34,108 nt of DNA from Gemmatimonadaceae bacterium (GCA_030835125.1 JAUQWM010000007.1:1-34108), one strand, 5' to 3'; shown: positions 4,984 to 34,108, numbered from the stretch's first letter. Numbers and translations: made by a program. Notes: a model not told the origin generated them from the sequence alone.

Positions 4984-7578
4984 ATGATCGCGCTCGCTAT
5001 CGTGCTGGCCCTTGCATCCATGCCCGGCGTCGCACCCGGAGCGGGCGCCGACTCGCTGATGGCGCCGGGCGTGTCTCGGGAACTCGCGGATTTGCGCCGC
5101 GAACGCGTGTCCAACCTGCGGTATGAACTGGCCCTTGACGTCACCAGGCCCGATACCGCGGTTGGCCGGCTGACGACGCGCTTCATGCTGACCGGTTCCG
5201 GCGACCTGATCCTGGACTTCCGCGGCCCCGCGCTGCGCCGGGTCCGAGCCAACGGCGTGACCCTCGCCACGGTCGAGTTCAACGGACATCACATTCGCAT
5301 TCCCGGTGCGGCCCTCGGCGTCGGGGCCAACCGGCTCGACTTCGAGTTCAACGCGCGGATCGCGCCCGCCGGCGCGAGCATCATCCGCGTGCGGGATCCG
5401 TCCGACAGCGCGACGTACCTGTACACGCTCCTCGTTCCGAGCGACGCGCAACTCCTCTTCCCGGCGTTCGACCAGCCCGACCTCAAGGCTCGCGTCAGGC
5501 TGAGCCTGACAACGCCGCGCGACTGGACGGCCGTCGCCAACGGCGCCCGCACCGGGGCGGACACGGCGGGCCAGAAGGTGACGCACGCGTTCGCCGAGAC
5601 CCGACCGATCAGCACGTACCTGATCGCCTTCGCCGCGGGCCCCTGGGCGACCCGGACCTCCACGATCGCGGACCAGCCGGTCACGCTGTATGTCCGCCGG
5701 TCGCGGGCCGCCGAGGTCGAGGCGGACTCGATCATCGCCGATAACGCCAGGGGGCTGCGCTGGCTCGAGCGGTACTTCGCGTATCGCTACCCGTTCGGGA
5801 AGCTCGACATCGTGCTGGCGCCCGCGTTCCCCTTCGGTGGCATGGAGCACCCGGGCGCCATCTTCTACAACGAGGAGCGGTTCATCTTCCGCGAACCGCC
5901 GACGCTCACCCAGCGGCTCGGACGCACGGCGACGATCTACCACGAGGTCGCCCACCAGTGGTTTGGCGACCTGGTGACGATGCGCTGGTTCGACGACCTC
6001 TGGCTGAAGGAAGGCTTCTCGACCTACATGGCCGCGCGGATGCAGGCGTCGATGGATCCGCGCTCCGACGCCTGGAAGACCTTCTACCTGCGCAACAAGC
6101 CGCCCGCGTACGCGGTCGACGCAACGGAGGGCACGACCCCGGTCTGGCAGTCACTGGCCAACATGGACCAGGCCAAGAGCGCCTATGGCGCGATCGTCTA
6201 CAACAAGGCACCGTCGGTCCTGAAGCAACTCAATTACCTCGTCGGCGACGACGCCTTCCAGGGCGGCCTGCAACGCTTCCTGCGACAGTACGAGTTCGGG
6301 AACGCCACGTGGCAGCAACTGCTCGCCTCGGTGGGTTCGGCGTGGGGCAAACCGCTCGACGCCTGGGGGGCATCCTATATCCTCCGTCCGGGGATGCCGG
6401 TCATCGAGCAGCGCCTCGACGTGCGGGACGGCAGGATTGCCCGCCTCGCCCTGGTGCAGCGGCCGGCGCGTTCGATCTCGGGACGGGGCCCCTGGCCCAT
6501 CCGCACGGAGGTGACGATCGCCGGCGATGGCGCCCCGGCGCGCATTCCCGTGACGATCACCGGCGACACGACCATCGTCGCGCAGGCGGCTGGACTGCCC
6601 GCGCCGCGGTGGGTGTTCGCGAACTCGAACGACCAGGCTTACGCCCTCGTCCTGCTCGACTCCGGGAGCGTCTCCTGGCTCGAGCGGTCGCTGGGGACCG
6701 TGGCCAGCGGGTTCGAGCGCGCCATGCTCTGGGGCGGCCTGTGGGACCTGGTGCGGGACGCGGCCTTGTCGCCCGACCGGTTCGTGGGCATGGCGCTGCG
6801 GGAGCTGCCCGCCGAGCGCGACGAACAGGTGGCCGGTGTCCTCGTCGGCCGCCTGACGAGGGCCGTTGGCGGCTACCTCTCCGACGCGCGGCGCACCGCC
6901 AGGCTGCCGGACGTCGAGCACGTCCTGCTGGCGGGCGCCAGGGACAGCGCGTCCACGTACGGCATCCGTCGCGCCCACCTCGACGCGTTCGTCCGGGTGG
7001 CCGGGACTCGTGAGGCACTCGACACCTTGGACGCACTGCTCGACCGCGAGTCGTTCCGGGGCCTCTCGCTCGGCGCGCCGACGCGCTGGGCGATCGTCAC
7101 CCGGCTCGTCGCCACGGGCGCACCAGGCGCGGAGCGACGACTGCGCGAGGAGGTCCTGCGCGACCGGTCCCCCGACGGCGCGCGCCGGGCATTCGTCGCC
7201 GGCGCTGCACGCCCGGACCCGGCGGTCAAGCGGGAGTACTTCGAGCGGTACTTCGCTGACTCCACGCTCAACGAGGACTGGGCGACCGCGAGCCTGGACG
7301 CCTTCAACGCCCCGGAGTCGCGGGCCCTGGCGGCGCCCTTCCTGCGTCCGGCCCTCGACTCCCTGCCATGGATCCAGCGCCACCGTCGCATCTTCTACCT
7401 GGGGTCGTGGCTTGGCGCCTTCCTGGACGGACAGGTGGGCACCGACGCCGTCGAGACGGTCGACCGGTTCCTCCGCGAGACGCCCCGCCTCGGCGCGGAC
7501 CTCCGCAGCAAGGTGCTGCAGGCGGCCGATGAGCTGCGCCGTACGGCCGCCATCAGGGCCCGGTTCGCCAATGACTGA
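4984..7578 (+). CDS. M1 family zinc aminopeptidase, exported
   Basis: This 864-residue gluzincin removes N-terminal residues from peptides. A short signal peptide (about residues 1-23, ending GAGA) suggests a periplasmic or surface location. Zinc ligands are H320, H324 and E343 in HEVAHQWFGD...WLKEGF, the canonical HExxH-x18-E. The substrate-binding GxMEN motif is present as GGMEHPG (residues 285-291), with His replacing the usual Asn, a variant I recall in other bacterial M1 proteins. The C-terminal 400 residues are the helical ERAP1-like region. No Shine-Dalgarno site precedes the ATG. A TAGGCT hexamer ends six bases before it, so the mRNA may be leaderless. The stop overlaps the next gene by 8 bases. 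Confidence 0.94.
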   Translation: MIALAIVLALASMPGVAPGAGADSLMAPGVSRELADLRRERVSNLRYELALDVTRPDTAVGRLTTRFMLTGSGDLILDFRGPALRRVRANGVTLATVEFNGHHIRIPGAALGVGANRLDFEFNARIAPAGASIIRVRDPSDSATYLYTLLVPSDAQLLFPAFDQPDLKARVRLSLTTPRDWTAVANGARTGADTAGQKVTHAFAETRPISTYLIAFAAGPWATRTSTIADQPVTLYVRRSRAAEVEADSIIADNARGLRWLERYFAYRYPFGKLDIVLAPAFPFGGMEHPGAIFYNEERFIFREPPTLTQRLGRTATIYHEVAHQWFGDLVTMRWFDDLWLKEGFSTYMAARMQASMDPRSDAWKTFYLRNKPPAYAVDATEGTTPVWQSLANMDQAKSAYGAIVYNKAPSVLKQLNYLVGDDAFQGGLQRFLRQYEFGNATWQQLLASVGSAWGKPLDAWGASYILRPGMPVIEQRLDVRDGRIARLALVQRPARSISGRGPWPIRTEVTIAGDGAPARIPVTITGDTTIVAQAAGLPAPRWVFANSNDQAYALVLLDSGSVSWLERSLGTVASGFERAMLWGGLWDLVRDAALSPDRFVGMALRELPAERDEQVAGVLVGRLTRAVGGYLSDARRTARLPDVEHVLLAGARDSASTYGIRRAHLDAFVRVAGTREALDTLDALLDRESFRGLSLGAPTRWAIVTRLVATGAPGAERRLREEVLRDRSPDGARRAFVAGAARPDPAVKREYFERYFADSTLNEDWATASLDAFNAPESRALAAPFLRPALDSLPWIQRHRRIFYLGSWLGAFLDGQVGTDAVETVDRFLRETPRLGADLRSKVLQAADELRRTAAIRARFAND

Positions 7579-8143
7579 TCCGCATGCCCTGCGGGTCGAC
7601 CTCCCCGGCTGGGCGGCCGCGCGCGAGGTCGATGACAGGCGTTATGCAACGGATGATGACCGGATGCGGGTCGCCATCGAGGTGGCGTCGGCGAATGTCA
7701 CTGCCGGCAGCGGCGGGCCGTTCGGCGCGGCGATCTTCGAGGAGGCGAGCGGCCGCCTGGTGTCGCTCGGCGCGAATTCCGTCGTCCGGCTGCGGAACTC
7801 GTCGCTCCACGCCGAGATGGTGGCGTTCATGCGCGCGCAGGCCAGGCTGGGCACCTACTCGCTGGCCGCCGAGGGCCTCCCGGCGCACGCGCTGTACACA
7901 TCCTGCGATCCCTGTGCGATGTGCCTGGGCGCCGCGCTGTGGGCCGGCGTGCGGCGCATCGTGTGCGGCGCCACCCGACAGGATGCGGTCGCGCTCCAGT
8001 TCGACGAGGGGCCCGTGTTTCCCGCGTCGTACGAGTACCTCCACTCGCGCGGCATCGAGATCGTCCACGGGGTCCTGCGGGCGGAGGCGCGCGCCGTGCT
8101 GCAGCGCTATCGCGATCGCGGGGGCGTGATCTACAACGCATGA
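7571..8143 (+). CDS. CDA-fold zinc deaminase (guanine deaminase / nucleoside deaminase type)
   Basis: This 190-residue cytidine-deaminase-superfamily enzyme should deaminate a purine or pyrimidine base or nucleoside in the cytosol. Zinc ligands and the proton-shuttle Glu are H80 and E82 in LHAEM, and C115 and C118 in PCAMC. GGPFGAAIF and LYTSCDPCAMCLGAALW resemble B. subtilis GuaD more than TadA, but the substrate is not fixed by sequence. The ATG overlaps the end of the M1 gene by 8 bases. Its own stop overlaps the next start as ATGA, so the three genes form one translationally coupled unit. The metabolic link to the flanking peptidases is not obvious. Confidence 0.9.
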   Translation: MTDPHALRVDLPGWAAAREVDDRRYATDDDRMRVAIEVASANVTAGSGGPFGAAIFEEASGRLVSLGANSVVRLRNSSLHAEMVAFMRAQARLGTYSLAAEGLPAHALYTSCDPCAMCLGAALWAGVRRIVCGATRQDAVALQFDEGPVFPASYEYLHSRGIEIVHGVLRAEARAVLQRYRDRGGVIYNA

Positions 8144-8946
8144 CGGCGTCGGCCCGGATGTGGACTCGCATGGTCGCGCTGGGGGCCGCGTTCGTGACGC
8201 TCGCCTGCGACGTCTCGATCGCGGAGGAGGATGAACTGGGGGACCGGTATGCCGCGGCCCTCGAGGCCCAGCTTCCATTGCTGTCCGATTCGGCGTCCAC
8301 CGCCTGGCTCGCGCTCCTGGGCCACCGCATAACGCGGGTTGCCGACGACGCCCGGCGCGACTGGCACTGGTACCTGGTCGACGACAGCACCGTCAACGCC
8401 TTCGCCGTGCCCGGTGGCCACGTGTTCATCCACCGCGGCCTCGTCGAGCGCGCCGGATCGCTGTCCGAGTTCGCGGGCGTGGTCGGCCATGAGGTGGCGC
8501 ACGTGACCTTGCGCCACAGCGTCGACCAGTTGCGGTCGCGCACGAAGGCGAACGTGATCGTGACGGTGTTCTGCGCCGTCGTGAACGCATGTGGGTCACC
8601 GGTGGCGCAGGTCGCGCTGGACGTCGGCGGGAAGGCGCTGTTCGCGAAGTACAGCCGGGATGACGAGAGCCAGGCAGACTCCGCCGCGGTGGGGTATCTC
8701 GTCGAGGCGGGAATCGACCCCCGCGGGATTCCATCCTTCTTCGCGCGCCTCGAGGCGGAGCGGTCGACGAATCCGACGGCGCTGGACGCCTGGTTCGGGA
8801 GTCATCCGCTCGAAACGTCCCGGATCACGCGCACGCGAGCTGTCCTTGGCAACTTCAACGACGCGACGCTCGATGGCCTGACGGTTGAGGATCCAGGATT
8901 CTCCGCCTTTCAGTCAGCAGTGAAGGCGTCGAACCGTGCGCGCTGA
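8140..8946 (+). CDS. M48 family metallopeptidase, exported
   Basis: This 268-residue peptidase is of the short BepA/YcaL/Oma1-like M48 type. It has HEVAH at residues 117-121 and a third-ligand segment ESQADSAAVGYL. The N-terminus has a hydrophobic stretch ending VTLACD, an imperfect lipobox, so it may be a lipoprotein or periplasmic. In this family, VNAFAVPGGHVFIHRGL before the zinc motif is typical. Relatives clear misassembled outer-membrane proteins, a role that would suit a diderm cell, but this is by analogy only. The start overlaps the deaminase stop as ATGA. Confidence 0.9.
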   Translation: MTASARMWTRMVALGAAFVTLACDVSIAEEDELGDRYAAALEAQLPLLSDSASTAWLALLGHRITRVADDARRDWHWYLVDDSTVNAFAVPGGHVFIHRGLVERAGSLSEFAGVVGHEVAHVTLRHSVDQLRSRTKANVIVTVFCAVVNACGSPVAQVALDVGGKALFAKYSRDDESQADSAAVGYLVEAGIDPRGIPSFFARLEAERSTNPTALDAWFGSHPLETSRITRTRAVLGNFNDATLDGLTVEDPGFSAFQSAVKASNRAR

Positions 8947-9149: not shown

Positions 9150-10421
9150 ATGCTCGTACCGGAAGCTCCGCTCGACGCGTATCGCACGGACCTCGCTCGC
9201 GACAAGTCGCGTGAGGATTTCGGCGGCGCCGACACCGTGTGGCTCCTGACGGCGCATTGTCTGTCGCGGATCGCGCGGGCCACCGCTACCGACCTTCCGG
9301 TCCTCGGGGCGCAGTGCGCCGCCGCGTTGCGGGACTTCGCGGAGCCGGCGAGCGGGGGCAATGCGACGCCGGCCGCGGAGCTGGAGGATATCCTCCTGGT
9401 CTGTGAGGGCATGGCACGCCTGCGGACGCGCGCCGGCGCGGATGCCCTGACGAAAGGCATTCGGGGAATGGCGACGCGGATGGCGGACGCCGGGGCGTTG
9501 TCCATGGCCTATACCGCTGTGGGGTTCGTGCGACGGGTGGCGGACAACGCGAGTGATCGCGAGCGCGGCCTGCTCACCGCGGACCAGGCCATGATCGCCA
9601 GGCTGCTGGGCGACCTGGAGGCGGCGGAGGAGCTGTATCGCGCGGTCGAGTCGATCGGCGAGCGCGCCGCCGACATGACGGTCGTCGCCCGCGCGTTCAT
9701 CGGGCGGGGCGTCGTGGATCGCGTTCGGGGCAACTACCCGCGGTCCCGGATCTTCTTCGAGAGGGCGCTTGAACTCGCCGAGACGATCCAGTCGCGCGAC
9801 CTGAAGCGACTGGCCCACCAGGGCCTCACGATCTGTCATGCCATCGGCCGCAACTACGACCGCGGCCTGCAGCATGGCTGGGCGACGTACGAGTTGGCGG
9901 ACGGCCACCTCGGCCGCGAGGTGGAGGCCCTCACGAACCTCGCGCAGCTGTCGCTTGACGCCGGGTTTCCGGGAGCGGCGCTGCGAGGGTACGCGGCGGT
10001 CCTGGGGCGGTCGCCGTCGCCGCGGGTGGCGCTCAGCGCGCTGGGCGGTGCTGCGATCGCCGCCGCCCAGGCGCGCGAACCGGCGGCCCTGGCGCGCGCC
10101 ACGGCGGAGATCGAGGCTCGCGCGGCTGCGTCCGCCATGCCCTACGAGAACGCGCAGGCCCTGTACAGCCTCGCGACCGCCTACGCGGCCACGGGCGACC
10201 GCGGCCGGCAGGATGAGTACCTCGCCCGCGCCCGCAAGCTGGCGAAGGCGAGGGGCTTCTTCGAGCTGCTCCACAAGACCGACCCGGACGTCGTGGCGAA
10301 GGTGGCGATGCCGCCCGTCTCCGTCCCGCTGACCGAGCCGTCGCGTGACGTGGTGGCCTCGCTCACGGAGATCGACGTGGGCGAGGCCGCCGGGTTGCTC
10401 GCGCTTACTCCCCAGGCCTGA
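9150..10421 (+). CDS. TPR-repeat protein of unknown function
   Basis: This 423-residue protein is all-helical, with no signal peptide and no recognisable catalytic domain or HTH. From about residue 110 onward it shows degenerate tetratricopeptide-like helical pairs, for example ARLLGDLEAAEELYRAVESI, NYPRSRIFFERALELAE, NYDRGLQHGWATYELA and YSLATAYAATGDRGRQDEYL. It resembles the TPR regions of large bacterial regulators but lacks their DNA-binding part. Such repeats bind proteins or peptides, and the protein is predicted cytosolic. Its 3' end overlaps the convergent small DYVNPLG lipoprotein gene by 17 bp. That arrangement recalls, but does not prove, a sensor/peptide pair. No function can be assigned. 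Confidence 0.8.
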   Translation: MLVPEAPLDAYRTDLARDKSREDFGGADTVWLLTAHCLSRIARATATDLPVLGAQCAAALRDFAEPASGGNATPAAELEDILLVCEGMARLRTRAGADALTKGIRGMATRMADAGALSMAYTAVGFVRRVADNASDRERGLLTADQAMIARLLGDLEAAEELYRAVESIGERAADMTVVARAFIGRGVVDRVRGNYPRSRIFFERALELAETIQSRDLKRLAHQGLTICHAIGRNYDRGLQHGWATYELADGHLGREVEALTNLAQLSLDAGFPGAALRGYAAVLGRSPSPRVALSALGGAAIAAAQAREPAALARATAEIEARAAASAMPYENAQALYSLATAYAATGDRGRQDEYLARARKLAKARGFFELLHKTDPDVVAKVAMPPVSVPLTEPSRDVVASLTEIDVGEAAGLLALTPQA

Positions 10422-10650
10422 TGGCGATGCTGCCTAACGGGTTGACGTAATCGCCCAGCGGGTTCACGTAGTCTCCGAGGGGATTGACGTAATCACCGAG
10501 CGGATTGACGTAGTCACGATTCTCGCACGTCGAGTACGGCACCTTGCCCGCCATGCAGGACGACGACGTGGCGGGAGCGGTCGGCGAAACGCAGGCCGCC
10601 AGGGCGGCGACCGGGATGATGGCGGTGACCAGGCGAAGGATACGGCGCAT
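10405..10650 (-). CDS. Small lipoprotein with four tandem DYVNPLG heptapeptides
   Basis: This 81-residue protein has a signal peptide of about 19 residues (MRRILRLVTA..., hydrophobic core) ending in a clean lipobox LAAC with C20. A short linker VSPTAPATSSS follows, then two cysteines (C32 and C42) flanking a basic-polar segment, then DYVNPLG repeated four times exactly at residues 46-73, and an 8-residue tail. GGAG lies about 7 bases before the ATG. The repeats are identical in protein but differ at many synonymous sites, so they are maintained as peptide. I recognise no family. The gene is divergent from an AraC-type regulator with a palindrome in between and overlaps the convergent TPR gene. 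It could be a peptide-signal precursor, a surface ligand or a structural lipoprotein. Confidence 0.85.
   Translation of the reverse strand: MRRILRLVTAIIPVAALAACVSPTAPATSSSCMAGKVPYSTCENRDYVNPLGDYVNPLGDYVNPLGDYVNPLGSIAIRPGE
10432..10515 (-). repeat. Four 21-bp units encoding DYVNPLG
   Basis: Four in-frame 21-bp units lie within the small lipoprotein gene. The units use GAT or GAC, GTC or GTG, AAC or AAT, CCG or CCC, TTA, CTG or CTC, and GGC, GGA or GGT, yet all encode the same heptapeptide. One unit uses the rare codon TTA. Confidence 0.95.
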
Positions 10651-10711
10651 GTATGGCTCCAGCGGTTGGGGGTCTGAAGCAACCTGTACCACTGCGCGAG
10701 CAGGCACCGAC

Positions 10712-10740
10712 ACGCCATGTGACGTCGTGATACATGGCGT
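10712..10740. promoter_or_regulatory. Candidate operator: perfect 9-bp inverted repeat in a divergent promoter region
   Basis: ACGCCATGT at 10712-10720 and its exact reverse complement ACATGGCGT at 10732-10740 are separated by 11 bases. The site lies 21 bp before the AraC-type regulator start and about 60 bp before the lipoprotein start. That is a suitable place for the regulator to control both genes. The binding protein is inferred from position only. Confidence 0.6.
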
Positions 10741-10761
10741 AACGTTTCGTGCGATGGTTCC

Positions 10762-11556
10762 ATGATCGTGGCGGCGCTGGTGCGCGACCCGACCTCCCGT
10801 GCCCGACTGTCCGCGGCGCTCAGGAACGAATCGGCGGTGCGGTATTGCGCCCGGATGAGCGAGGTGCTGACCATGGTCGAGACCGGCCTGGCCGCCCTCG
10901 TGGTGACCGAGCATCGCGACTACGACGGCAGCCCGACGCTCCCCGGAATCCGGCACCTCAGGAGTGCGTTCCCCTCCGTACCGGTCGTGGTCTACCTGCC
11001 CGTCTCCGCCGAGGTCGCGGGCGTCGTGATGGAAGTGGCGAAGGCCGGCGCGAGCCAGCTGGTCTTTCAGGGCGTGGATGACCTCAAGCCCGCGCTGAGG
11101 ACCGCGATCGATGCGGCGGTGGACCAGGTCTCCGCCGCCGGGCTCAGCGCCGAACTCGAGCCGCTGGTGCCCGCGACCATCCTGCCGTTCCTGCGGTATT
11201 GCATGGAACACGCGCGGCGCGACATCTCCGTCGAGGAGGTCGCCGGCGCCATGGGGGTCCACCGCAAGACGCTCGTGGACCGGCTTCGCGCTGCGAGACT
11301 GCCGTCACCACGCTCGGTCATCGGCTGGTGCCGCCTGCTGGCCGCCGCGCGCCTCCTCGACGACCCGGGCCGCACGGTCGAGCAGGTGGCCCTCAAGCTC
11401 GACTTTCCATCCGGCACCGCCCTGCGCAACATGTGCAAGCGCTACACCGGGCTCCGGACGACCGAGGTGCGCCAGAATGGTGGCGTACGCTGCCTGATGC
11501 ACGCGTTCAAGGGCGAGCTGGTGGCGCTGGCGGCGAACAGGCCGCCGGCCGCCTGA
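10762..11556 (+). CDS. AraC-type transcriptional regulator with a pseudo-receiver N-terminus
   Basis: This 264-residue protein has a C-terminal AraC double helix-turn-helix at about residues 150-245: ISVEEVAGAMGVHRKTLVDRL is the first HTH, and TVEQVALKLDFPSGTALRNMCKRYTG is the second with its conserved tail. The first 120 residues have the alternating hydrophobic pattern of a response-regulator receiver. The segment that should hold the phospho-acceptor Asp reads ALVVTEHRD, so phosphorylation is unlikely. It is divergent from the DYVNPLG lipoprotein across 111 bp that contains a perfect inverted repeat. Autoregulation and control of the lipoprotein are the natural guesses. It ends four bases from the convergent ATPase gene. 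Confidence 0.88.
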   Translation: MIVAALVRDPTSRARLSAALRNESAVRYCARMSEVLTMVETGLAALVVTEHRDYDGSPTLPGIRHLRSAFPSVPVVVYLPVSAEVAGVVMEVAKAGASQLVFQGVDDLKPALRTAIDAAVDQVSAAGLSAELEPLVPATILPFLRYCMEHARRDISVEEVAGAMGVHRKTLVDRLRAARLPSPRSVIGWCRLLAAARLLDDPGRTVEQVALKLDFPSGTALRNMCKRYTGLRTTEVRQNGGVRCLMHAFKGELVALAANRPPAA

Positions 11557-12470: not shown

Positions 12471-14621
12471 ATGCGCAGGATGATCGCACTCATCGCACTG
12501 GCCGCGCCACTGTACGGCCTCACGGCCCAGTCCCAGCGTCCGTTCACGCCGGCCGACTGGTATCGGGTGACGACGCTGAGCGCGCCGGCGGTGTCGCCGG
12601 ACGGGCGGCTGGTCGCCTTCACGGTGACCACGGTGAAGGAGACCGACAACCGCCGCCACCAGGAAGTCTGGGTTGTCCCCAGCGCCGGCGGCACGTCGTT
12701 GCGGTACACCGCGCCTGGATATGAGAGCTCCAATCCGCGCTGGTCTCCAGATGGACGCTGGTTGCTTTTCAACTCCACGCGCCCCGGTTCGCGCGGTCGC
12801 ACCTGGGGCCTCCGCATGGACCAGCCCGGCGGTGAGGCGGTGGAGATCGACAGCTTCCCCGCCGGCTCCATGCCTGGCGACCACCGGTTCGTGGTGACGT
12901 CAGAGCCCCTGCCCGTGGACAGCACCGGCCGCGGCCGGGACTCGCTCGTGAGCATGCCCCCGATGGCGCGGCCACCCTACGGTTCGATCACCCAGCCGCT
13001 GGATCCCAGGCGATTCGACGGGCGCCACATCACCGACCTGCGGTACAAGGCGAACGGCCAGGGATTCCTTCCGGGCCCGCGCGAGGCGCGCGTCATTCGC
13101 GCGTCGCAGCTCTGGATGCAGCCGGTCGGCGGAGGGGCGAAGAAGGTGATCGACACGACGAGATACTCGCGCCGCAGCCCGGCCGTATCGCCCGACGGGC
13201 AGTGGATCGCCTACGTCGCCGATCCCGAGATGCGGCCCGACTCCGTCGTCGAGGCCATCGCGGACTCGATGGCGCTGCTGCCCTATGACGCCAGGCGCGA
13301 CGAGGCGCCACGCAACGACGCCGACATCTTCATCGTCAGCGTGAACGGCGGGGCGCCGCGCCGCCTGACGAGTGCGATGGGGTCGGAAGGCGACGTCACC
13401 TGGTCGCCCGACGGCAAGTCGATCTCGTTCACGTCAGCCGCCACCCGGACCGGGTCGGCCCGTCTGCACGTCGTCCCGGCGGCCGGCGGCACGCCCGGCA
13501 ACCTGCTGGGCAACTGGCAATACGAGCCGCAGGATCACTGGTGGACGCCGGCCGGCCAGATCATGGTGGCTGCCGCGGTGGGCGGGCGCACCGCGCTCTT
13601 CCGGCTCGATCCCGGCACGAAGCTGATGACGGAAGTCATCGGCGGTCGGCGCCGCCTGGCGGGGTTCTCGACGGATGCAAAGCAGGCGAAGGTCGCTTAC
13701 GTATCGACGAGCATCACCAAACCCACGGAGTTGTACATCGCCAACAGCGACGGCACCGGCGAGGTCAAGCTGACGACCTTCAACGACAAGCTGAACGCCG
13801 AGGTGGAGTGGGCGGACGCGGAGCGGTTCACCTACAAGTCGGTCGGCGGGCTGGAGATCGAGGCGTGGCTGCAGAAGCCTGCCGGCTACACGCCAGGCCG
13901 GAAATACCCGTTGGTCCTGTACATCCACGGCGGACCGCACAGCGCGTACGGGGAGAACTGGTTCGACGAGTTTCACAACCTGTCCGGCGCGGGGATGTGG
14001 GTCCTCTTCACCAACCCGCGCGGGTCGAGCGGATATGGCGGCGACTTCACGTACTCGACGCGCGGCCGCTGGGGACTCGAGGATTTCCAGGACCTGATGA
14101 AGGCGGTGGACATCGTCTCCACGCGTGCCGACGTGGACTCGACGCGCATGGGCGTCACCGGAGGGTCGTACGGCGGCTTCATGACGGCGTGGATCACGAC
14201 GAAGACCAACCGGTTCAAGGCGGCGCAGACGGACCGCATGATCTCGAACTGGTGGTCGTGGTACGGGACGACCGACGTGCCGGGCCTGACGGAGTTCGAG
14301 TTCTTCGGGAAGCCGTGGGAGAACGAGAAGGTCTACGACGAACTCTCACCCATTCGCTTCGTCGACAAGGTGCGCACCCCGACCCTGATCGTGCAGTCGG
14401 AGGAAGACCACCGCACCCCGATGGCGGACGCGGAGCAGTGGTTCATGGCGCTGAAGAAGCAGGGCGTCCCGGTGGAGCTGGTGCGGTATCCGCGCTCGAC
14501 GCACGACCTTTCCCGCACGGGTGAGCCATGGCTCCTCGTGGATCGACTGGGCCGGCTTCGGCAGTGGTTCGGCCACTGGCTCAAGCCGACGGGAGCGGCG
14601 ACCACGTCGTTCGATCGGTGA
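12471..14621 (+). CDS. S9 family prolyl oligopeptidase-like serine peptidase, exported
   Basis: This 716-residue protein has a signal peptide (MRRMIALIALAAPLYGLTAQ), then a beta-propeller of WD/TolB-like blades with repeated SPDG motifs (about residues 40-420), then an alpha/beta-hydrolase domain. Catalytic residues are S566 in GGSYGGF, D646 in SEEDHRTP and H678 in RSTHDLS. It is the S9C type (acylaminoacyl-peptidase / dipeptidyl aminopeptidase) and should cleave short peptides in the periplasm, the propeller limiting substrate size. The ATG at 12471 is preceded by GGAGCGAAGG. A GTG at 12423 would place 16 polar residues before the signal peptide and is less likely. A heptad repeat starts five bases after the stop codon. 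Confidence 0.94.
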   Translation: MRRMIALIALAAPLYGLTAQSQRPFTPADWYRVTTLSAPAVSPDGRLVAFTVTTVKETDNRRHQEVWVVPSAGGTSLRYTAPGYESSNPRWSPDGRWLLFNSTRPGSRGRTWGLRMDQPGGEAVEIDSFPAGSMPGDHRFVVTSEPLPVDSTGRGRDSLVSMPPMARPPYGSITQPLDPRRFDGRHITDLRYKANGQGFLPGPREARVIRASQLWMQPVGGGAKKVIDTTRYSRRSPAVSPDGQWIAYVADPEMRPDSVVEAIADSMALLPYDARRDEAPRNDADIFIVSVNGGAPRRLTSAMGSEGDVTWSPDGKSISFTSAATRTGSARLHVVPAAGGTPGNLLGNWQYEPQDHWWTPAGQIMVAAAVGGRTALFRLDPGTKLMTEVIGGRRRLAGFSTDAKQAKVAYVSTSITKPTELYIANSDGTGEVKLTTFNDKLNAEVEWADAERFTYKSVGGLEIEAWLQKPAGYTPGRKYPLVLYIHGGPHSAYGENWFDEFHNLSGAGMWVLFTNPRGSSGYGGDFTYSTRGRWGLEDFQDLMKAVDIVSTRADVDSTRMGVTGGSYGGFMTAWITTKTNRFKAAQTDRMISNWWSWYGTTDVPGLTEFEFFGKPWENEKVYDELSPIRFVDKVRTPTLIVQSEEDHRTPMADAEQWFMALKKQGVPVELVRYPRSTHDLSRTGEPWLLVDRLGRLRQWFGHWLKPTGAATTSFDR

Positions 14622-14625
14622 AGTC

Positions 14626-14653
14626 GGGAATCGGGAATCGGGAGTCGGGAATC
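14626..14653. repeat. Heptanucleotide tandem repeat GGGAATC, four units
   Basis: GGGAATC, GGGAATC, GGGAGTC, GGGAATC, beginning five bases after the S9 peptidase stop. Relative to the flanking plus-strand genes it reads GGGAATC. The icd, pntAB, lemA and peptidase-MA tracts read GATTCCC in the mRNA sense, so this is the exception. Confidence 0.9.
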
Positions 14654-14705
14654 GGTGGTGCCCTCGACGAAGGCTCGCGGCCTGTGGTTGAAGGCTCGGG
14701 TTCCT

Positions 14706-19385: not shown

Positions 19386-19389
19386 CCAC

Positions 19390-19430
19390 GAGGTCCGAGG
19401 GCCGAGGTCCGAGGTCCGAGTCCGAGGTCA
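19390..19430. repeat. Heptanucleotide repeat GAGGTCC, about six units
   Basis: GAGGTCC, GAGGGCC, GAGGTCC, GAGGTCC, a 6-bp unit GAGTCC, then GAGGTCA. It starts four bases after the OsmC stop codon. Confidence 0.88.
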
Positions 19431-19446
19431 GGGCCCACGGGTCGCC

Positions 19447-19474
19447 GAGTCACGAATCACAAATCACGAGTCAC
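19447..19474. repeat. Heptanucleotide repeat GAGTCAC/GAATCAC, four units
   Basis: GAGTCAC, GAATCAC, AAATCAC, GAGTCAC, followed directly by GAATTGG, whose TTG is the likely start codon of the arginase-fold gene. It has the same unit and sense orientation as the tract upstream of htpX. Confidence 0.9.
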
Positions 19475-19477
19475 GAA

Positions 19478-20455
19478 TTGGTCCGCACCTTCTTCCTGCT
19501 GATCGTCGCGGCGACCGCCGTCCCGGCCCAGGTCCGCTACACCGGACCGGATGGGCGGGTCAGGGTGGCGCTCGCCCAGCAGCCGTTCTCGCCTAACGGG
19601 ACGTCCCGCGGGCCGGCCACGATGGCCGCCGGGGGCATTCGCGATACGCTGGCGCGGCTCAATGCCGTCGTGCGCTCGGCCGAGGCCGCGCTGACGCCTG
19701 ACGAGGGCACCGAGTACGGCGGGTGGAAGCGCCTGGGCATGGCCCTTGGCCACTTCGGCGACATCGTCCGCCAGAACGAGCAGGACGGGTACTTCACCGT
19801 GGGCCTGCTCGCGACCTGCCCGTCGATGCCGGGCCTGGTCGCCGGACTGCAGGCGTCCGGTCCCGGGCGGGATCCCCTGCGCATCGGCATGCTCTGGCTG
19901 GATGCCCACCCGGACATCAACACGCCCGAGACGACGCGCAGCGGTTCGCTGGGGGGGATGCCGGTCGCGGTGGCGACCGGGCGCGCGCTGCAGCGCATGC
20001 GGCTCGACGCCGGCCTCGATCCGGCGCTGTCTGACCAGCATGTCGTGATGGGCGGCGTGCGGCTCACGGACCCGCTGGAGCAGGAGATCCTCGACCGTTC
20101 GCGCATCGAGCAGGTCTCGGTCGACGACCTGCGTCGCGCTTCGCCGGCGGTCTTCGCCCAGCTCGACCGGCTGGATCGCATCAGCGACAAGCTCTACATC
20201 CACATCGACCTCGACGTGCTCGATCCCGCCGAAGTCCCCGGCCACGGCAACAAGGTCCCCGGCGGACCGTCGAGCCGGGAACTGGCGGCGCTCTTCGAGC
20301 AGATCTTCGCCCGGTATCCCAGGGCGTCGGCGATCGGCTTCGCGACCATCCCGACCGACGACCCCGGCGGTGTCTCGATTTCGGCCGTCAACCGCATGAT
20401 CACGGGAGCGGTGAAGGGCGTGATGGCGCGCGAGGGACGCGGACCGCGCCCCTAG
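19478..20455 (+). CDS. Exported arginase-fold protein with altered active site
   Basis: A 325-residue ureohydrolase-fold protein. The metal motifs WLDAHPDIN (Asp-x-His-x-Asp) and HIDLDVLDP (Asp-x-Asp) are intact. By alignment from memory with Bacillus arginase, the first Mn ligand (His of GGDHS) is Cys in LLATCPS, the proton-shuttle His of SGNIHGMP is Gly in SGSLGGMP, and the guanidinium-binding Glu near the C-terminus is not evident. It also has a signal-like N-terminus (VRTFFLLIVAATAVPAQ), unusual for this family. The activity is therefore uncertain: ureohydrolase on another substrate, or a non-catalytic relative. The only sensible start before the signal peptide is TTG at 19478, immediately after heptad repeats, with no Shine-Dalgarno site. 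The stop shares the tetranucleotide CTAG with the convergent transporter. Confidence 0.83.
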   Translation: MVRTFFLLIVAATAVPAQVRYTGPDGRVRVALAQQPFSPNGTSRGPATMAAGGIRDTLARLNAVVRSAEAALTPDEGTEYGGWKRLGMALGHFGDIVRQNEQDGYFTVGLLATCPSMPGLVAGLQASGPGRDPLRIGMLWLDAHPDINTPETTRSGSLGGMPVAVATGRALQRMRLDAGLDPALSDQHVVMGGVRLTDPLEQEILDRSRIEQVSVDDLRRASPAVFAQLDRLDRISDKLYIHIDLDVLDPAEVPGHGNKVPGGPSSRELAALFEQIFARYPRASAIGFATIPTDDPGGVSISAVNRMITGAVKGVMAREGRGPRP

Positions 20456-23640: not shown

Positions 23641-23645
23641 GGGTC

Positions 23646-23673
23646 GGGAATCGGGAATCGGGAATCGGGAATC
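23646..23673. repeat. Heptanucleotide repeat GGGAATC, four perfect units
   Basis: Four identical GGGAATC units (GATTCCC in the mRNA sense) fill the short gap between pntAA (stop 23679) and pntAB (start 23640) within one operon. Confidence 0.95.
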
Positions 23674-23678
23674 GCGCG

Positions 23679-29456: not shown

Positions 29457-32401
29457 GGGGAGTACGCGAGGCTGGCCCACGCGCGGGCGCGCCGCCGGTA
29501 GGGCTCGTCGAAGGACCACGCCGCCCCCACCCGGGCCCGGACCGACGGCAGTCGCGCGAACCCTAACGACGAGACCGCGAACGTGCGCTCGATCCCGGCC
29601 AGCCGCTTCAACGCGCCGAGCGAGTCACCGGCGGCGACCCAGGTCGCGAAGGGCTCCCACGACATCCCGCCGAGGGACGCCCGGAAGACGTGCACGTTGG
29701 CGCCGCGCAGGAAGCCGGGTGGCACGGCGGGGAGGGTGATGCGCTGCGGGAGCCAGGACGGGTCGATCCACGGGTTGGCCGCGCCGCCGACCAGGAATTG
29801 CTCTGCCGCCCGACCGGCGTCGCCGGGTTCCGCGCGCGTGACGCCCCCAAGCAGCCAGTCGATGCGAACGAACCGGCGACCCGTTCCGGCCACCGCCGTC
29901 GCGGAGCCAGCCAGTCGCCGCCAGTCGTCATCGCCGGTGCGGCCCGCCGACGCCGCGAGTCCACCCACCAGGCTCAGGGTCATTGCGCCGGCCGATTGCG
30001 TCAGGCGACCCCGCGCCTCGCCGAACGCCAGCAGCCGGGTGGCCCCATCGAGGGCATGGTTGTCCATCCGCCCGGCCGACGCGCCGGCGCGGAGCGACCA
30101 GCCTGACGCGCCCTCCTCGCTGGCGAGCCGCGCCGCGAGCCCGCCACCGGTGTAACGCAGGTCCATGGATGGCGGTGCCAGGTGATCCCGCAACGCGGAC
30201 ACCTGCTGGTCGACATGCCACACGGTGCCGTCGATGGCAACGCGGGTGCGTCGCAGCGACGCCGCCAGGGATCCGCCGCGCCACGAACCGCGCGTGCCGG
30301 CACCACCCTGTGCCACGATGCTGAGGCGTGCGATGGGATCGATGTTGCCGATCATCAGCGTGCCCACATGGCCATCCGGACCCGCGCTGAGCCCGGGAAG
30401 CACGCGCCAGCGCCGCGGACCCAGTCCGTAGTCGGAAACCGGGAATCGGGAATCGGGAGTCGGGAATCGGGAAGCGTCCAGCTGCGCGATCGCCGGCGTC
30501 GGCGGTGCCACGGGCGACGACCCGCCCCCGATCGCCACCACGTTCAGGGCGCCATCCAGCGAAGCCAACCGGCGGACGTCGTAACCGCCGCTTCGCAACG
30601 CCAGGAACCACACGCTGGAATCGCGTCGACCGACGTCCGGGGCCAGGACCGCGCCGATGACCCGGGTCAGGACCCTCCCTGCGCCGCCCTCCACCGGGAG
30701 GTGCTCCAGGTTGGCGATCCCGCCGCGTTCACTGACGACGACCAGGTGCGCCCCGTCGGCCGTCCACGACGGTGCATAACGAGATGCCCCGGGGGCGTCC
30801 TCGAGCCGGCGCACCGACCCGGACCCGACGTCGACGATCGCGATTCCCCAGCGACCGTCCTCCTGGAAGCCTGCCGCGACATGCCGGCCATCGGGACTGA
30901 ACCGCGGCCGGTGCCAGACGAGCGCCGGCGAACCGGCGGCCAGCGTGCGCCACGAGCCGTCACGCAGGTCCACCACGACCAGGCTGCAGGATCCGGCGTG
31001 GCACCGGATGGCGGCGGCCTCGCGCCCATCGGGCGACGGGTCCCCCTGCCGCACGCTCGCGCCGCGCGTCACCCGCCTGACGACACCGGACGTCGTGTTC
31101 CACAGGAAGAGATCCGGCCGCGTGATGCCGTTCGGCGCGGGTTCGTCGCGGGTCACCAGGACGTGCACGCTGTCCACCCACCGGGGATGCTCGTGCGAGC
31201 GTCCATTGGCGGGATGCAGCGTGGCCAGTACGCGCCGTGGCCGGGGAAACGAGTCGCGCGGCGCCACGTCGAGCGAGTCGCGCGCCAGCAGGCGCGCGCG
31301 CGCCTGCCTGACGAGTGAGTCGGGGGCCGGGCGGGCGTCCCAGACCTGGAGTCGCGAGGGACCGCCCAGCGACCTGGCGACGATGGCCACGCGCTCGCCG
31401 TCCGGGGACACCGCCGGGTCGCCGGTCGCCCCGCTCATCCGCTGCACCAGTTCGCCCTCGACCAGCCCCGCGGCGCGCAGGCGCCCGCGCACCTGAAGGG
31501 CGCGGTCGATGACGTCCACCGTGAAGGCGCCATACATCTCCGCCGGCGACACGCCGAAGACCCCGGCGAACGCGGCGTCGAACGACCGCTCCTGCCGCGC
31601 GCTCATCCGCCGCCACAGGTGGACGAGGCTCGAGTCGCCCTGGCGCTGCTCCAGCCACTCGAGGAAGGCCGACCCCACGAGGTAGCGCATGTTGCCGCCC
31701 AGGAACGCGCCGCTGCCGTTGAGTTGTCCGTAGGTCGGGAACCGGCCCTCGAGCGCCCATTGCCGGAGCACGGCGGCGCGCCCCACCGAGAACGGCCGGC
31801 CGCTGCCGGTGAGCTGTCCCTCGATCAGGGTCGCGTACCCCTCGATGACCCACGGGGGCGCCTTGCGGGCCACCGGGCTGAGCTTCGTCGGCAGGAAGCG
31901 CCAGAGCAACCGCTCGCGCGGGTTGCGCGACGGGAATGTCAGGTGGGCGATGTGCGCGTACTCGTGCACCGCGAGCGCCTCTCCCCAGCCGCGGTGCGCA
32001 CCGAAGGTCGGCGAGGGCGACGGCGGTGTGGGCCAGAGGAAGATGACCGGACCCTCGAGGAAGGGCAGCGCGAACCCGTTCGCAACGTTCGATGGATCCT
32101 CGACGAGCACGGTGACCCGCGCCGCGGGCTGGTTCCCCACGACTGCATTCACCGCGCCGGCATACGCTTCCATCCGCGCCGCCACGCCCCGCGTCCATTC
32201 CTCCATCTCGGCGGGGAAGTGGATATCGAAATGCGCCGTCACAATGGTGCGCCAGGGAACCTGGGGTCGCGTGAGGTACTGTCCGTGCGCCGGCGCCGCT
32301 GCCAATCCGAGTGCCAGCGCGATCAACACGGCGGACCGCCGACAGCCGTCGGGCGCCTGGAGCGTTCGCGCCAGGAGTCCCACGTCACGGCCGGGTCTCA
32401 C
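29453..32401 (-). CDS. Exported peptidase-MA-like metallopeptidase with beta-propeller and possible outer-membrane barrel
   Basis: A protein of about 982 residues. A signal peptide (RRSAVLIALALGLAAAPAHGQ) precedes a peptidase-MA domain with HEYAH (H146, E147, H150) and a downstream third-ligand segment WVIEGYATLIEGQ. A TolB-like propeller follows (about residues 330-640; AVSPDGERVAIV, FSPDGRHVAAGF, WTADGAHLVVV). The last 300 residues have alternating strands typical of a beta-barrel and end in YSP rather than a classic terminal Phe. A GGGAATC heptad tract is translated within the propeller-barrel linker (ASRFPTPDSRFPVSD). The GTG at 32401 overlaps the htpX stop as GTGA; GTG at 32383 is an alternative. 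Function is unknown beyond probable surface proteolysis. Confidence 0.85.
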   Translation of the reverse strand: MRPGRDVGLLARTLQAPDGCRRSAVLIALALGLAAAPAHGQYLTRPQVPWRTIVTAHFDIHFPAEMEEWTRGVAARMEAYAGAVNAVVGNQPAARVTVLVEDPSNVANGFALPFLEGPVIFLWPTPPSPSPTFGAHRGWGEALAVHEYAHIAHLTFPSRNPRERLLWRFLPTKLSPVARKAPPWVIEGYATLIEGQLTGSGRPFSVGRAAVLRQWALEGRFPTYGQLNGSGAFLGGNMRYLVGSAFLEWLEQRQGDSSLVHLWRRMSARQERSFDAAFAGVFGVSPAEMYGAFTVDVIDRALQVRGRLRAAGLVEGELVQRMSGATGDPAVSPDGERVAIVARSLGGPSRLQVWDARPAPDSLVRQARARLLARDSLDVAPRDSFPRPRRVLATLHPANGRSHEHPRWVDSVHVLVTRDEPAPNGITRPDLFLWNTTSGVVRRVTRGASVRQGDPSPDGREAAAIRCHAGSCSLVVVDLRDGSWRTLAAGSPALVWHRPRFSPDGRHVAAGFQEDGRWGIAIVDVGSGSVRRLEDAPGASRYAPSWTADGAHLVVVSERGGIANLEHLPVEGGAGRVLTRVIGAVLAPDVGRRDSSVWFLALRSGGYDVRRLASLDGALNVVAIGGGSSPVAPPTPAIAQLDASRFPTPDSRFPVSDYGLGPRRWRVLPGLSAGPDGHVGTLMIGNIDPIARLSIVAQGGAGTRGSWRGGSLAASLRRTRVAIDGTVWHVDQQVSALRDHLAPPSMDLRYTGGGLAARLASEEGASGWSLRAGASAGRMDNHALDGATRLLAFGEARGRLTQSAGAMTLSLVGGLAASAGRTGDDDWRRLAGSATAVAGTGRRFVRIDWLLGGVTRAEPGDAGRAAEQFLVGGAANPWIDPSWLPQRITLPAVPPGFLRGANVHVFRASLGGMSWEPFATWVAAGDSLGALKRLAGIERTFAVSSLGFARLPSVRARVGAAWSFDEPYRRRARAWASLAYSP
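30441..30475. repeat. Heptanucleotide repeat GGGAATC inside a coding region
   Basis: Five units: GGGAATC, GGGAATC, GGGAGTC, GGGAATC, GGGAAGC. It is translated on the minus strand without a stop as part of the linker of the peptidase-MA protein. Thirty-five bases is not a multiple of three, so the tract cannot be a simple in-frame insertion of whole units alone. Confidence 0.93.
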
Positions 32402-33434: not shown

Positions 33435-33510
33435 GTGATTCGTGACTGGTGATTCGTGACTCGGCACCTCCGCGTCATCGCCGAGTCACGAGTCACGAAT
33501 GACCAGTCAC
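33435..33510. repeat. Large inverted repeat built from GTGACTC-type heptads between lemA and htpX
   Basis: The left arm has GTGATTC, GTGACTG, GTGATTC, GTGACTC (33435-33462). The right arm has GAGTCAC, GAGTCAC, GAATGAC, CAGTCAC (33483-33510), roughly the reverse complement with one extra or shifted unit. The spacer is about 20 bases. The mRNA could form a long, slightly bulged hairpin exactly between the two genes. The lemA stop codon (33507-33509) lies inside the last unit of the right arm, and the left arm ends two bases from the htpX ATG. Confidence 0.88.
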
Positions 33511-34067
33511 GAGAGGTCGACCTTCGGCACCGCGCGCTCGGCTTCGTCCGTGATCTCCCAGAGCGGCGCGGGCGTCGCGCCCGCGATCCCGGCCACGAAC
33601 ACTGTCGGCACCTGGCGCTGCTTGGTGTTGTATTGCGTGGCCACGTCGTTGTAGAGCTGCCGGGCAAACGCGATCTTGTTCTCCGTCGACGTGAGTTCCT
33701 CCTGCAGCTGTCCGATGTTCGCGGTCGCCTTGAGGTCCGGGTCCGCCTCGACCACCGCGAGCAGGCGATGCAGCGCGCCCGTCAACTGGCCTTCCACCGC
33801 GGCGATCTTCGCCACGTCGCCTCCGGCGGACACCGAGATGGCCTGGTTCCGCGCCGCCACCACCGCCTCGAGCGTCCCCTTCTCGAAGGTCATCGCCCCC
33901 TTCACGGCCGCGATCAGGTTGGGAATCAGGTCGTGCCGGCGCTTCAACTGCACATCGATCTGCTTCCACGCGTTCGCGACCTGATTCTTGAGGGAGATCA
34001 GGGCGTTGTAGGCCCCAACGCCCCACATCACGATCAGGACCGTCAGGATCAGCAGGGTGATGAGCAT
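33507..34067 (-). CDS. lemA: LemA family membrane protein
   Basis: This 186-residue protein has one N-terminal transmembrane helix (MLITLLILTVLIVMWGVGAY) followed by the LemA helical domain: NALISLKNQVANAWKQIDVQLKRRHDLIPNL, then KGAMTFEKGTLEAVVAAR, and ENKIAFARQLYNDVATQYNT near the end. The biochemical role is unresolved. In many bacteria it is encoded with HtpX or TPM-domain proteins and tied to envelope stress. The ATG at 34067 has a GAGG about 7 bases upstream, a real ribosome site squeezed between the start and a GATTCCC tract. Its stop lies in a heptad unit shared with the inverted repeat before htpX. Confidence 0.95.
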   Translation of the reverse strand: MLITLLILTVLIVMWGVGAYNALISLKNQVANAWKQIDVQLKRRHDLIPNLIAAVKGAMTFEKGTLEAVVAARNQAISVSAGGDVAKIAAVEGQLTGALHRLLAVVEADPDLKATANIGQLQEELTSTENKIAFARQLYNDVATQYNTKQRQVPTVFVAGIAGATPAPLWEITDEAERAVPKVDLS

Positions 34068-34078
34068 CTTCAGGCCTC

Positions 34079-34106
34079 GGGAATCGGGAATCGGGAATGG
34101 GGAATC
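34079..34106. repeat. Heptanucleotide repeat GGGAATC at the right window edge
   Basis: GGGAATC, GGGAATC, GGGAATG, GGGAATC upstream of lemA, in GATTCCC orientation relative to lemA. It may continue beyond the window. Confidence 0.9.
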
Positions 34107-34108
34107 GG

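Follow-up and report, generated by a model that had tools for sequence, protein, structure and literature searches.

Bacillota are the only bacteria for which intracellular TPR pheromone receptors (RRNPPA) have been described (PMC9765709, PMC12700828). The RRNPP_detector survey covered Firmicutes and viruses only (PMC10075063). In the literature we searched, no paper tied Gemmatimonadota to an RRNPP-type TPR pheromone system. The enterococcal sex pheromones cAD1 and cCF10, peptides of 7-8 residues that are read by a cytosolic receptor, are cut from the signal peptides of lipoproteins. Here we describe a cassette of three genes, encoding a TPR protein, a short lipoprotein and a regulator, that looks like an unreported peptide-signalling system in two-membrane bacteria, from which systems of this kind are not known. 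We put the probability that it is a self-contained peptide-sensing circuit, RRNPP-like in its working but not a member of RRNPP, at roughly one half.

The window, i.e., the whole stretch of DNA that was analysed, is the entire 34,108-base contig C36 of the 4.48 Mb draft genome of a Gemmatimonadaceae bacterium, a genome in which the cassette occurs once (Table 1). An initial annotation of this DNA had taken the host to be probably diderm, as its placement in Gemmatimonadota bears out, and had described a lipoprotein precursor of 81 residues with four identical heptapeptides, encoded by a gene that overlaps the TPR gene at the latter's 3' end. The precursor, its lipobox and its DYVNPLG units are all found there, and the overlap is one of 17 nt between the 3' ends of two convergent genes. 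The whole precursor reads MRRILRLVTAIIPVAALAAC-VSPTAPATSSSCMAGKVPYSTCENR-(DYVNPLG)x4-SIAIRPGE, and its gene is divergent from that of the regulator, with a region of 111 bp separating the two. A scan for sigma-70 promoters and terminators found none. Many arrays of 7-bp units (TCGGGAA, ACTCGTG, TCAACTC and others) lie in intergenic regions of the window, both contig ends included (1-26, 1250-1389, 14614-14655, 19389-19478, 23644-23674, 30432-30473, 33435-33513 and 34077-34108), and are possibly phase-variable or assembly-breaking repeats.

Table 1. Features of the three-gene cassette, in window coordinates.
Feature	Coordinates	Strand	Details
TPR superhelix protein gene, cytosolic, candidate peptide receptor	9150..10421	+	423 aa; without export signal
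Short lipoprotein precursor gene, candidate pro-peptide	10405..10650	-	81 aa; LAAC lipobox, Cys20
Lipoprotein-type signal peptide and lipobox, residues 1-20	10591..10650	-	MRRILRLVTAIIPVAALAAC; same type in relatives
Four identical DYVNPLG units, residues 46-73	10432..10515	-	relatives have 1-4 units [DN][FY][VI]NPxx
Operator-like block, lipoprotein/regulator intergenic	10709..10745	.	aligned in 12 genomes
Regulator gene, receiver-fold N-terminal domain and AraC-type HTH	10762..11556	+	264 aa

That the three genes form a conserved unit is shown by comparison across Gemmatimonadota, where the order of TPR gene (forward), short lipoprotein gene (reverse) and receiver-AraC regulator gene (forward) recurs. 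Pooling all loci, we gathered 79 TPR-regulator pairs from 66 genomes, and an antisense lipoprotein ORF is present in the gap of 67 of them, which bears out the claim that the window holds a real, undescribed cassette. Since the loci were picked mostly through TPR matches, and some through regulator matches, it is the lipoprotein count that forms the unbiased part of this comparison. Lipoproteins were recognised from a combination of lipobox, hydrophobic stretch and positive start, and not with SignalP; a stricter first set of rules gave 38/79, and the figure of 67/79 comes from relaxed rules for which the controls were re-run, with 0 such ORFs on the sense strand and a mean of 1.0 (maximum 4) over 50 shuffled sets. 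In 11 of the 12 pairs with no gap lipoprotein, the gap is shorter than 200 bp, too short to hold one. One might ask whether a gene so short, overlapping the 3' end of the TPR gene, is a chance ORF and no real gene. The recurrence of the ORF at the same position, with none on the other strand, already refutes this by comparison, and the purely synonymous differences among the units (see below) speak against it as well; we give a chance ORF a negligible probability.

Searching 198 related genomes with the lipoprotein returned 11 matches at E<1e-3, all of them inside a cassette or next to the regulator gene where a contig ends. Lipoprotein homologues without the TPR and AraC-type genes, which the initial annotation had named as evidence that would count against its proposal, are absent from this set. 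Among more distant loci there is one exception: in G064 (L142:2034-3276), a lipoprotein with the tail CPPGVSVGSGQC is divergent from a regulator homologue, and a TPR gene was not detected alongside. Other distant exceptions to the full cassette are L202, L206, L207 and L211, which have a TPR gene and an antisense lipoprotein gene, with no regulator homologue detected within the stretch. The TPR protein as query found 42 genomes at E<=1e-10, and of the 47 stretches retrieved for these matches, 45 have a regulator homologue near the TPR match. Phylum-wide, a TPR profile found 138/395 genomes and 61/138 genera, other families of the class included, and the distances among TPR proteins and among regulators are correlated at r=0.91, against a maximum of 0.12 in 999 permutations. 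All relatives found belong to Gemmatimonadota, the nearest named ones being Gemmatimonadaceae, in searches that comprised whole genomes of that phylum, plasmid records, phage records and one scan of GTDB species contigs with the regulator alignment as query. Plasmid matches to the TPR query came from Gemmatirosa plasmids only, two cassettes being plasmid-borne in Gemmatirosa kalamazoonensis, a cultured species in which the lipoproteins terminate in CVQPWY and CDATQPWWLC, and phage records searched with the regulator query gave no match.

The short-gap pairs that lack a lipoprotein (L204, L208, L224-L226, L232, L233, L236, L084 and L092) form clades of their own on the TPR tree; lipoprotein-less TPR-regulator pairs resemble RRNPP receptors without a propeptide. 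In G105 (L078, L074), several cassettes lie close together, and one contig of 6.7 kb holds multiple genes of both the TPR and the regulator kind, probably as the outcome of recent local duplication. The genes flanking the cassette, for an M1 peptidase and an AAA ATPase, are conserved solely inside the window's clade, where shared ancestry is enough to account for their synteny, and a target operon beside the cassette was rejected on this ground. Genes for an M1-type aminopeptidase (window 4984-7578) and an M48 metallopeptidase (8143-8946) lie directly upstream of the cassette; because the synteny of the M1 gene is limited to the window's clade, a role of these two in peptide maturation would be speculation. 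Identity as a defence system was also rejected, PADLOC giving nothing more specific than weak, generic matches to TPR and HTH.

The DNA of the four DYVNPLG units differs at 7 of 21 positions, through at least 9 substitutions, all of them synonymous. With ~24% synonymous sites, the chance of such an outcome under no constraint is ~2.5e-6; what is conserved is therefore the peptide and not the DNA, and the heptapeptide appears to be kept by protein-level selection and not by recent DNA copying. DYVNPLG-type repeats beside TPR genes in related genomes, a search that had been proposed for the window, were found: within the window's clade, the tails consist of four units (DYVNPLG, DYINPLG or DFVNPNA), three (DFVNPHV, DFVNPHI or NFVNPNV) or two (DFVNPNV). 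Units are 97% identical within a precursor and 64% identical between precursors, which is the pattern of concerted change. Tandem heptapeptides hold for the window but are not universal: in most relatives there is just one C-terminal peptide, and certain repeat units are 6, 8, 10 or ~15 residues long. The precursors end in a peptide, with the classes [DN][FY][VI]NPxx, xPWx, SGYxI, xGSGx and others; in other TPR clades the peptides include DTLPWN, DTIPWV, DVKPWG, GGSQPWY x3, APTLPWADVN, RRPTIPWA x3 and ATEVVPWF x2, as well as CRSGYVIIDGRVLC, CDQNNPNVCH, GFPTTGN, HNPDSGN x3 and HTLGSGN x6. An exact internal repeat of at least 5 residues is present in 16 of the 67 precursors (0.2 expected by chance), and unrelated heptamers are repeated in separate lineages (DYVNPLG x4, HTLGSGN x6, HNPDSGN x3); such a recurrent independent rise of short repeated units fits the peptide itself as the putative functional unit. 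Peptide class, defined by simple patterns drawn after the data had been seen, tracks TPR clade, with 10 changes on the TPR tree against a mean of 39 and a minimum of 31 for shuffled labels, a match that may be plain co-descent. Where a genome has paralogous cassettes, their peptides differ, e.g., MLGSGG, QVIGSGS and GGLLGSNH in G398. No obvious protease site was seen between units. A likeness of xDTLPWN to PapR (ADLPFEF) was noticed on visual comparison only and carries no weight here.

These precursors invite other readings. The lipoprotein might be a surface repeat protein (an adhesin, a decoy for phage or host, or an envelope spacer) whose expression the AraC-type regulator simply controls, with the TPR protein as a co-regulator that has no contact with the peptide. 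A lipobox in all members, a repeat number that differs among relatives and the paired half-sites upstream of the lipoprotein gene (described below) agree with this. The mature parts are tiny, however, with a median of 35 residues after the lipobox Cys, and consist mostly of one peptide of 6-8 residues, and both the tracking of TPR clade by peptide class and the four loci that hold TPR and lipoprotein genes with no detected regulator count against a mere surface product; we consider it doubtful, though it deserves some weight. Size and lipobox also recall small toxic lipoproteins, and a toxic lipoprotein or peptide of an entericidin-like or lysis-protein-like kind could be restrained by the TPR protein and the regulator. 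Yet no toxin family was matched, the varied hydrophilic tails look non-membrane-active and an antitoxin-like partner is absent, which leaves toxicity a very improbable explanation.

The TPR protein matches Pfam TPR_2 over the cut-off (E=9e-8), and its AF2 model is a continuous TPR superhelix with a pLDDT of 90.7. The best structural match to this model is LGN (Z 24-26), followed by RapI, RapH, RapF and NprR (Z ~19-21), with KLC1 also among the top matches; Rap, NprR, LGN and KLC1 all bind peptides or proteins, and the predicted fold is of the peptide-binding type. Pheromone receptors are not set apart by this fold, because the matches to LGN and other eukaryotic TPR proteins equal or exceed those to Rap. 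A Pfam scan of 28 TPR homologues returned generic TPR models and one RPN7 match, with no RRNPP model, and a TPR profile compared to PDB sequences at E<=0.01 retrieved no Rap, NprR, PlcR, PrgX or AimR chain.

The regulator has an AraC-type HTH at residues 153-240 (Pfam HTH_18, E=1e-12, 48 bits against a cut-off of 33.6), and its AF2 model (pLDDT 90.2) gives the N-terminal domain, residues 1-125, a receiver fold (Z 18.2, 117 residues, rmsd 1.9 to 3t6k); the Pfam scan of the regulator yielded no Response_reg match. The phosphorylation site is degenerate in the window, where the expected Asp is an E and the Lys a Q, and across 79 regulator homologues the conserved acidic pair, the phospho-Asp and the Lys are mixed.

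The perfect palindrome that the initial annotation had reported between the divergent genes is present, as ACGCCATGT-N11-ACATGGCGT at 10712-10740 with half-sites 20 bp apart, and is now joined by the finding that sister clades have direct repeats at this location, at a spacing of 20-21 bp. When offsets from 14 to 35 were tested, repeats matching at 13/16 positions were found in 14 of the 67 lipoprotein-regulator regions, only at offsets 20 and 21 (~0.1 expected); the window's own region has a 9/16 repeat match plus the palindrome. A distance of 20-21 bp is the half-site spacing of AraC-family dimers (araI1-I2), and because of this agreement the palindrome is best read as the predicted operator of the cassette's own regulator. 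It is unique in its own genome, where the sole other site is a single weak match at 3 mismatches, and the block consensus, with <=3 mismatches allowed, has a single occurrence in each of 10 relatives, always at the cassette. No outside regulon was found in the own genome and these 10 relatives, the full operator lying solely at the cassette, and a search with the half-site gave matches near the chance level. A 19-nt match to the operator block, GTGATACATGGCGTAACGT, lies at L274:6225-6243 (G000:C37 ~14224-14242), with an MFS transporter gene ~180 bp downstream of it and a Dpp/Opp-type transporter operon beside it, and is a possible second target of the regulator. The palindrome CGTTACATGG(C/T)GTAACG, or a close variant of it, was seen in three relatives (L275:4696, L276:486 and L277:4392), in the intergenic stretch separating a GNAT gene from one for a small membrane protein. 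Palindromes like CGTTACATGGYGTAACG, located between small membrane-protein and GNAT genes in three relatives, were set aside as regulon sites because they are upstream of neither flanking gene.

In the peptide-sensing circuit that we propose, the lipoprotein would be exported, and its terminal or repeated peptide (here DYVNPLG, in four copies per precursor) would be freed from it. The peptide, or a processed form of it, would re-enter the cytosol, an import for which four SBP_bac_5 (Opp-like binding) proteins encoded elsewhere in the genome are permissive only, and would bind in the groove of the TPR protein, which may then modulate the receiver-AraC regulator in the way that Rap modulates response regulators. 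Acting at the paired half-sites, the regulator would control the lipoprotein gene and itself in a feedback loop, and what the signal conveys could be cell density, the presence of kin or the state of export in the cell itself. Compared with Bacillota, release and re-import are made more difficult by the lipid anchor and the second membrane.

Release and import are unneeded if the TPR protein is instead a cytosolic export gauge that binds the tail of un-exported prolipoprotein: once lipoprotein export is saturated, precursor would accumulate, engage the TPR protein and reset the regulator. A cytosolic TPR protein and a conserved tail suit such a gauge, as does a strong operator at the cassette only, which is what a self-contained feedback loop would have, and no double crossing of two membranes is called for. 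It leaves unexplained, however, why the peptide diverges between clades and between paralogues of the same genome, and why one precursor holds several copies, and we regard it as unlikely. Beyond the peptide-sensing circuit itself, we tentatively advance, at a little short of even odds, the wider proposition that cytosolic TPR peptide receptors evolved independently and phylum-wide in diderms, with multi-copy lipid-anchored precursors and a pseudo-receiver/AraC output, as a pheromone class outside Bacillota.

If the peptide-sensing reading is right, dozens of receptor-peptide pairs, with their peptides predicted, become available for a phylum that is common in soil and for which hardly any cell-cell signalling is known, and a new question arises as to how a peptide that passes two membranes is obtained from a precursor with a lipid anchor. 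Even under the rival explanations, the cassette is a widespread regulatory unit with a mapped putative operator and a testable ligand, and the two plasmid-borne cassettes of cultured G. kalamazoonensis make experiments possible.

Like the RRNPPA systems of Bacillota (Rap-Phr, PlcR-PapR, NprR-NprX, AimR-AimP; PMC9765709, PMC10075063, PMC12700828), the cassette has a cytosolic TPR protein within the range of 250-500 aa (423 aa) and an adjacent small exported precursor within that of 10-100 aa (81 aa, with the lipobox called by pattern), ending in a short variable C-terminal peptide, and it shares with them multiple paralogous pairs per genome and some receptors without a precursor. Unlike RRNPPA, it occurs in Gemmatimonadota and has no RRNPPA sequence match, its precursor is a lipoprotein with identical tandem peptide units in one precursor, its gene order is convergent, and its DNA-binding protein is a separate third gene. 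Judged by sequence and by known distribution, which comprises Bacillota and their mobile elements, RRNPPA membership fails; what stands of the RRNPP analogy first drawn for the window is the TPR fold, the adjacent tiny exported precursor, the repeated or hypervariable peptides that follow clades, and the response-regulator-type regulator.

The regulator has the receiver fold of two-component response regulators but not their conserved acidic pair, phospho-Asp and Lys. With AraC/XylS proteins it shares the HTH_18 domain and paired direct-repeat half-sites ~21 bp apart, whereas its N-terminal domain is a receiver fold and not a cupin, and it is tied to TPR and lipoprotein genes. An HTH-less TPR superhelix beside a receiver-fold DNA-binding protein is also the arrangement of Rap-ComA and Rap-Spo0F, the Z to RapF, RapH and RapI being ~19-21 (24-26 to LGN); in contrast to these, the receiver here is degenerate, is fused to an AraC-type HTH and is encoded in the same cassette, and binding between the TPR protein and the regulator is putative. 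Lastly, as with enterococcal cAD1 and cCF10, a short signal from a lipoprotein precursor would be read by a cytosolic receptor, here a candidate one, but where the enterococcal peptide comes from the signal peptide, the conserved peptide of the cassette lies in the mature tail.
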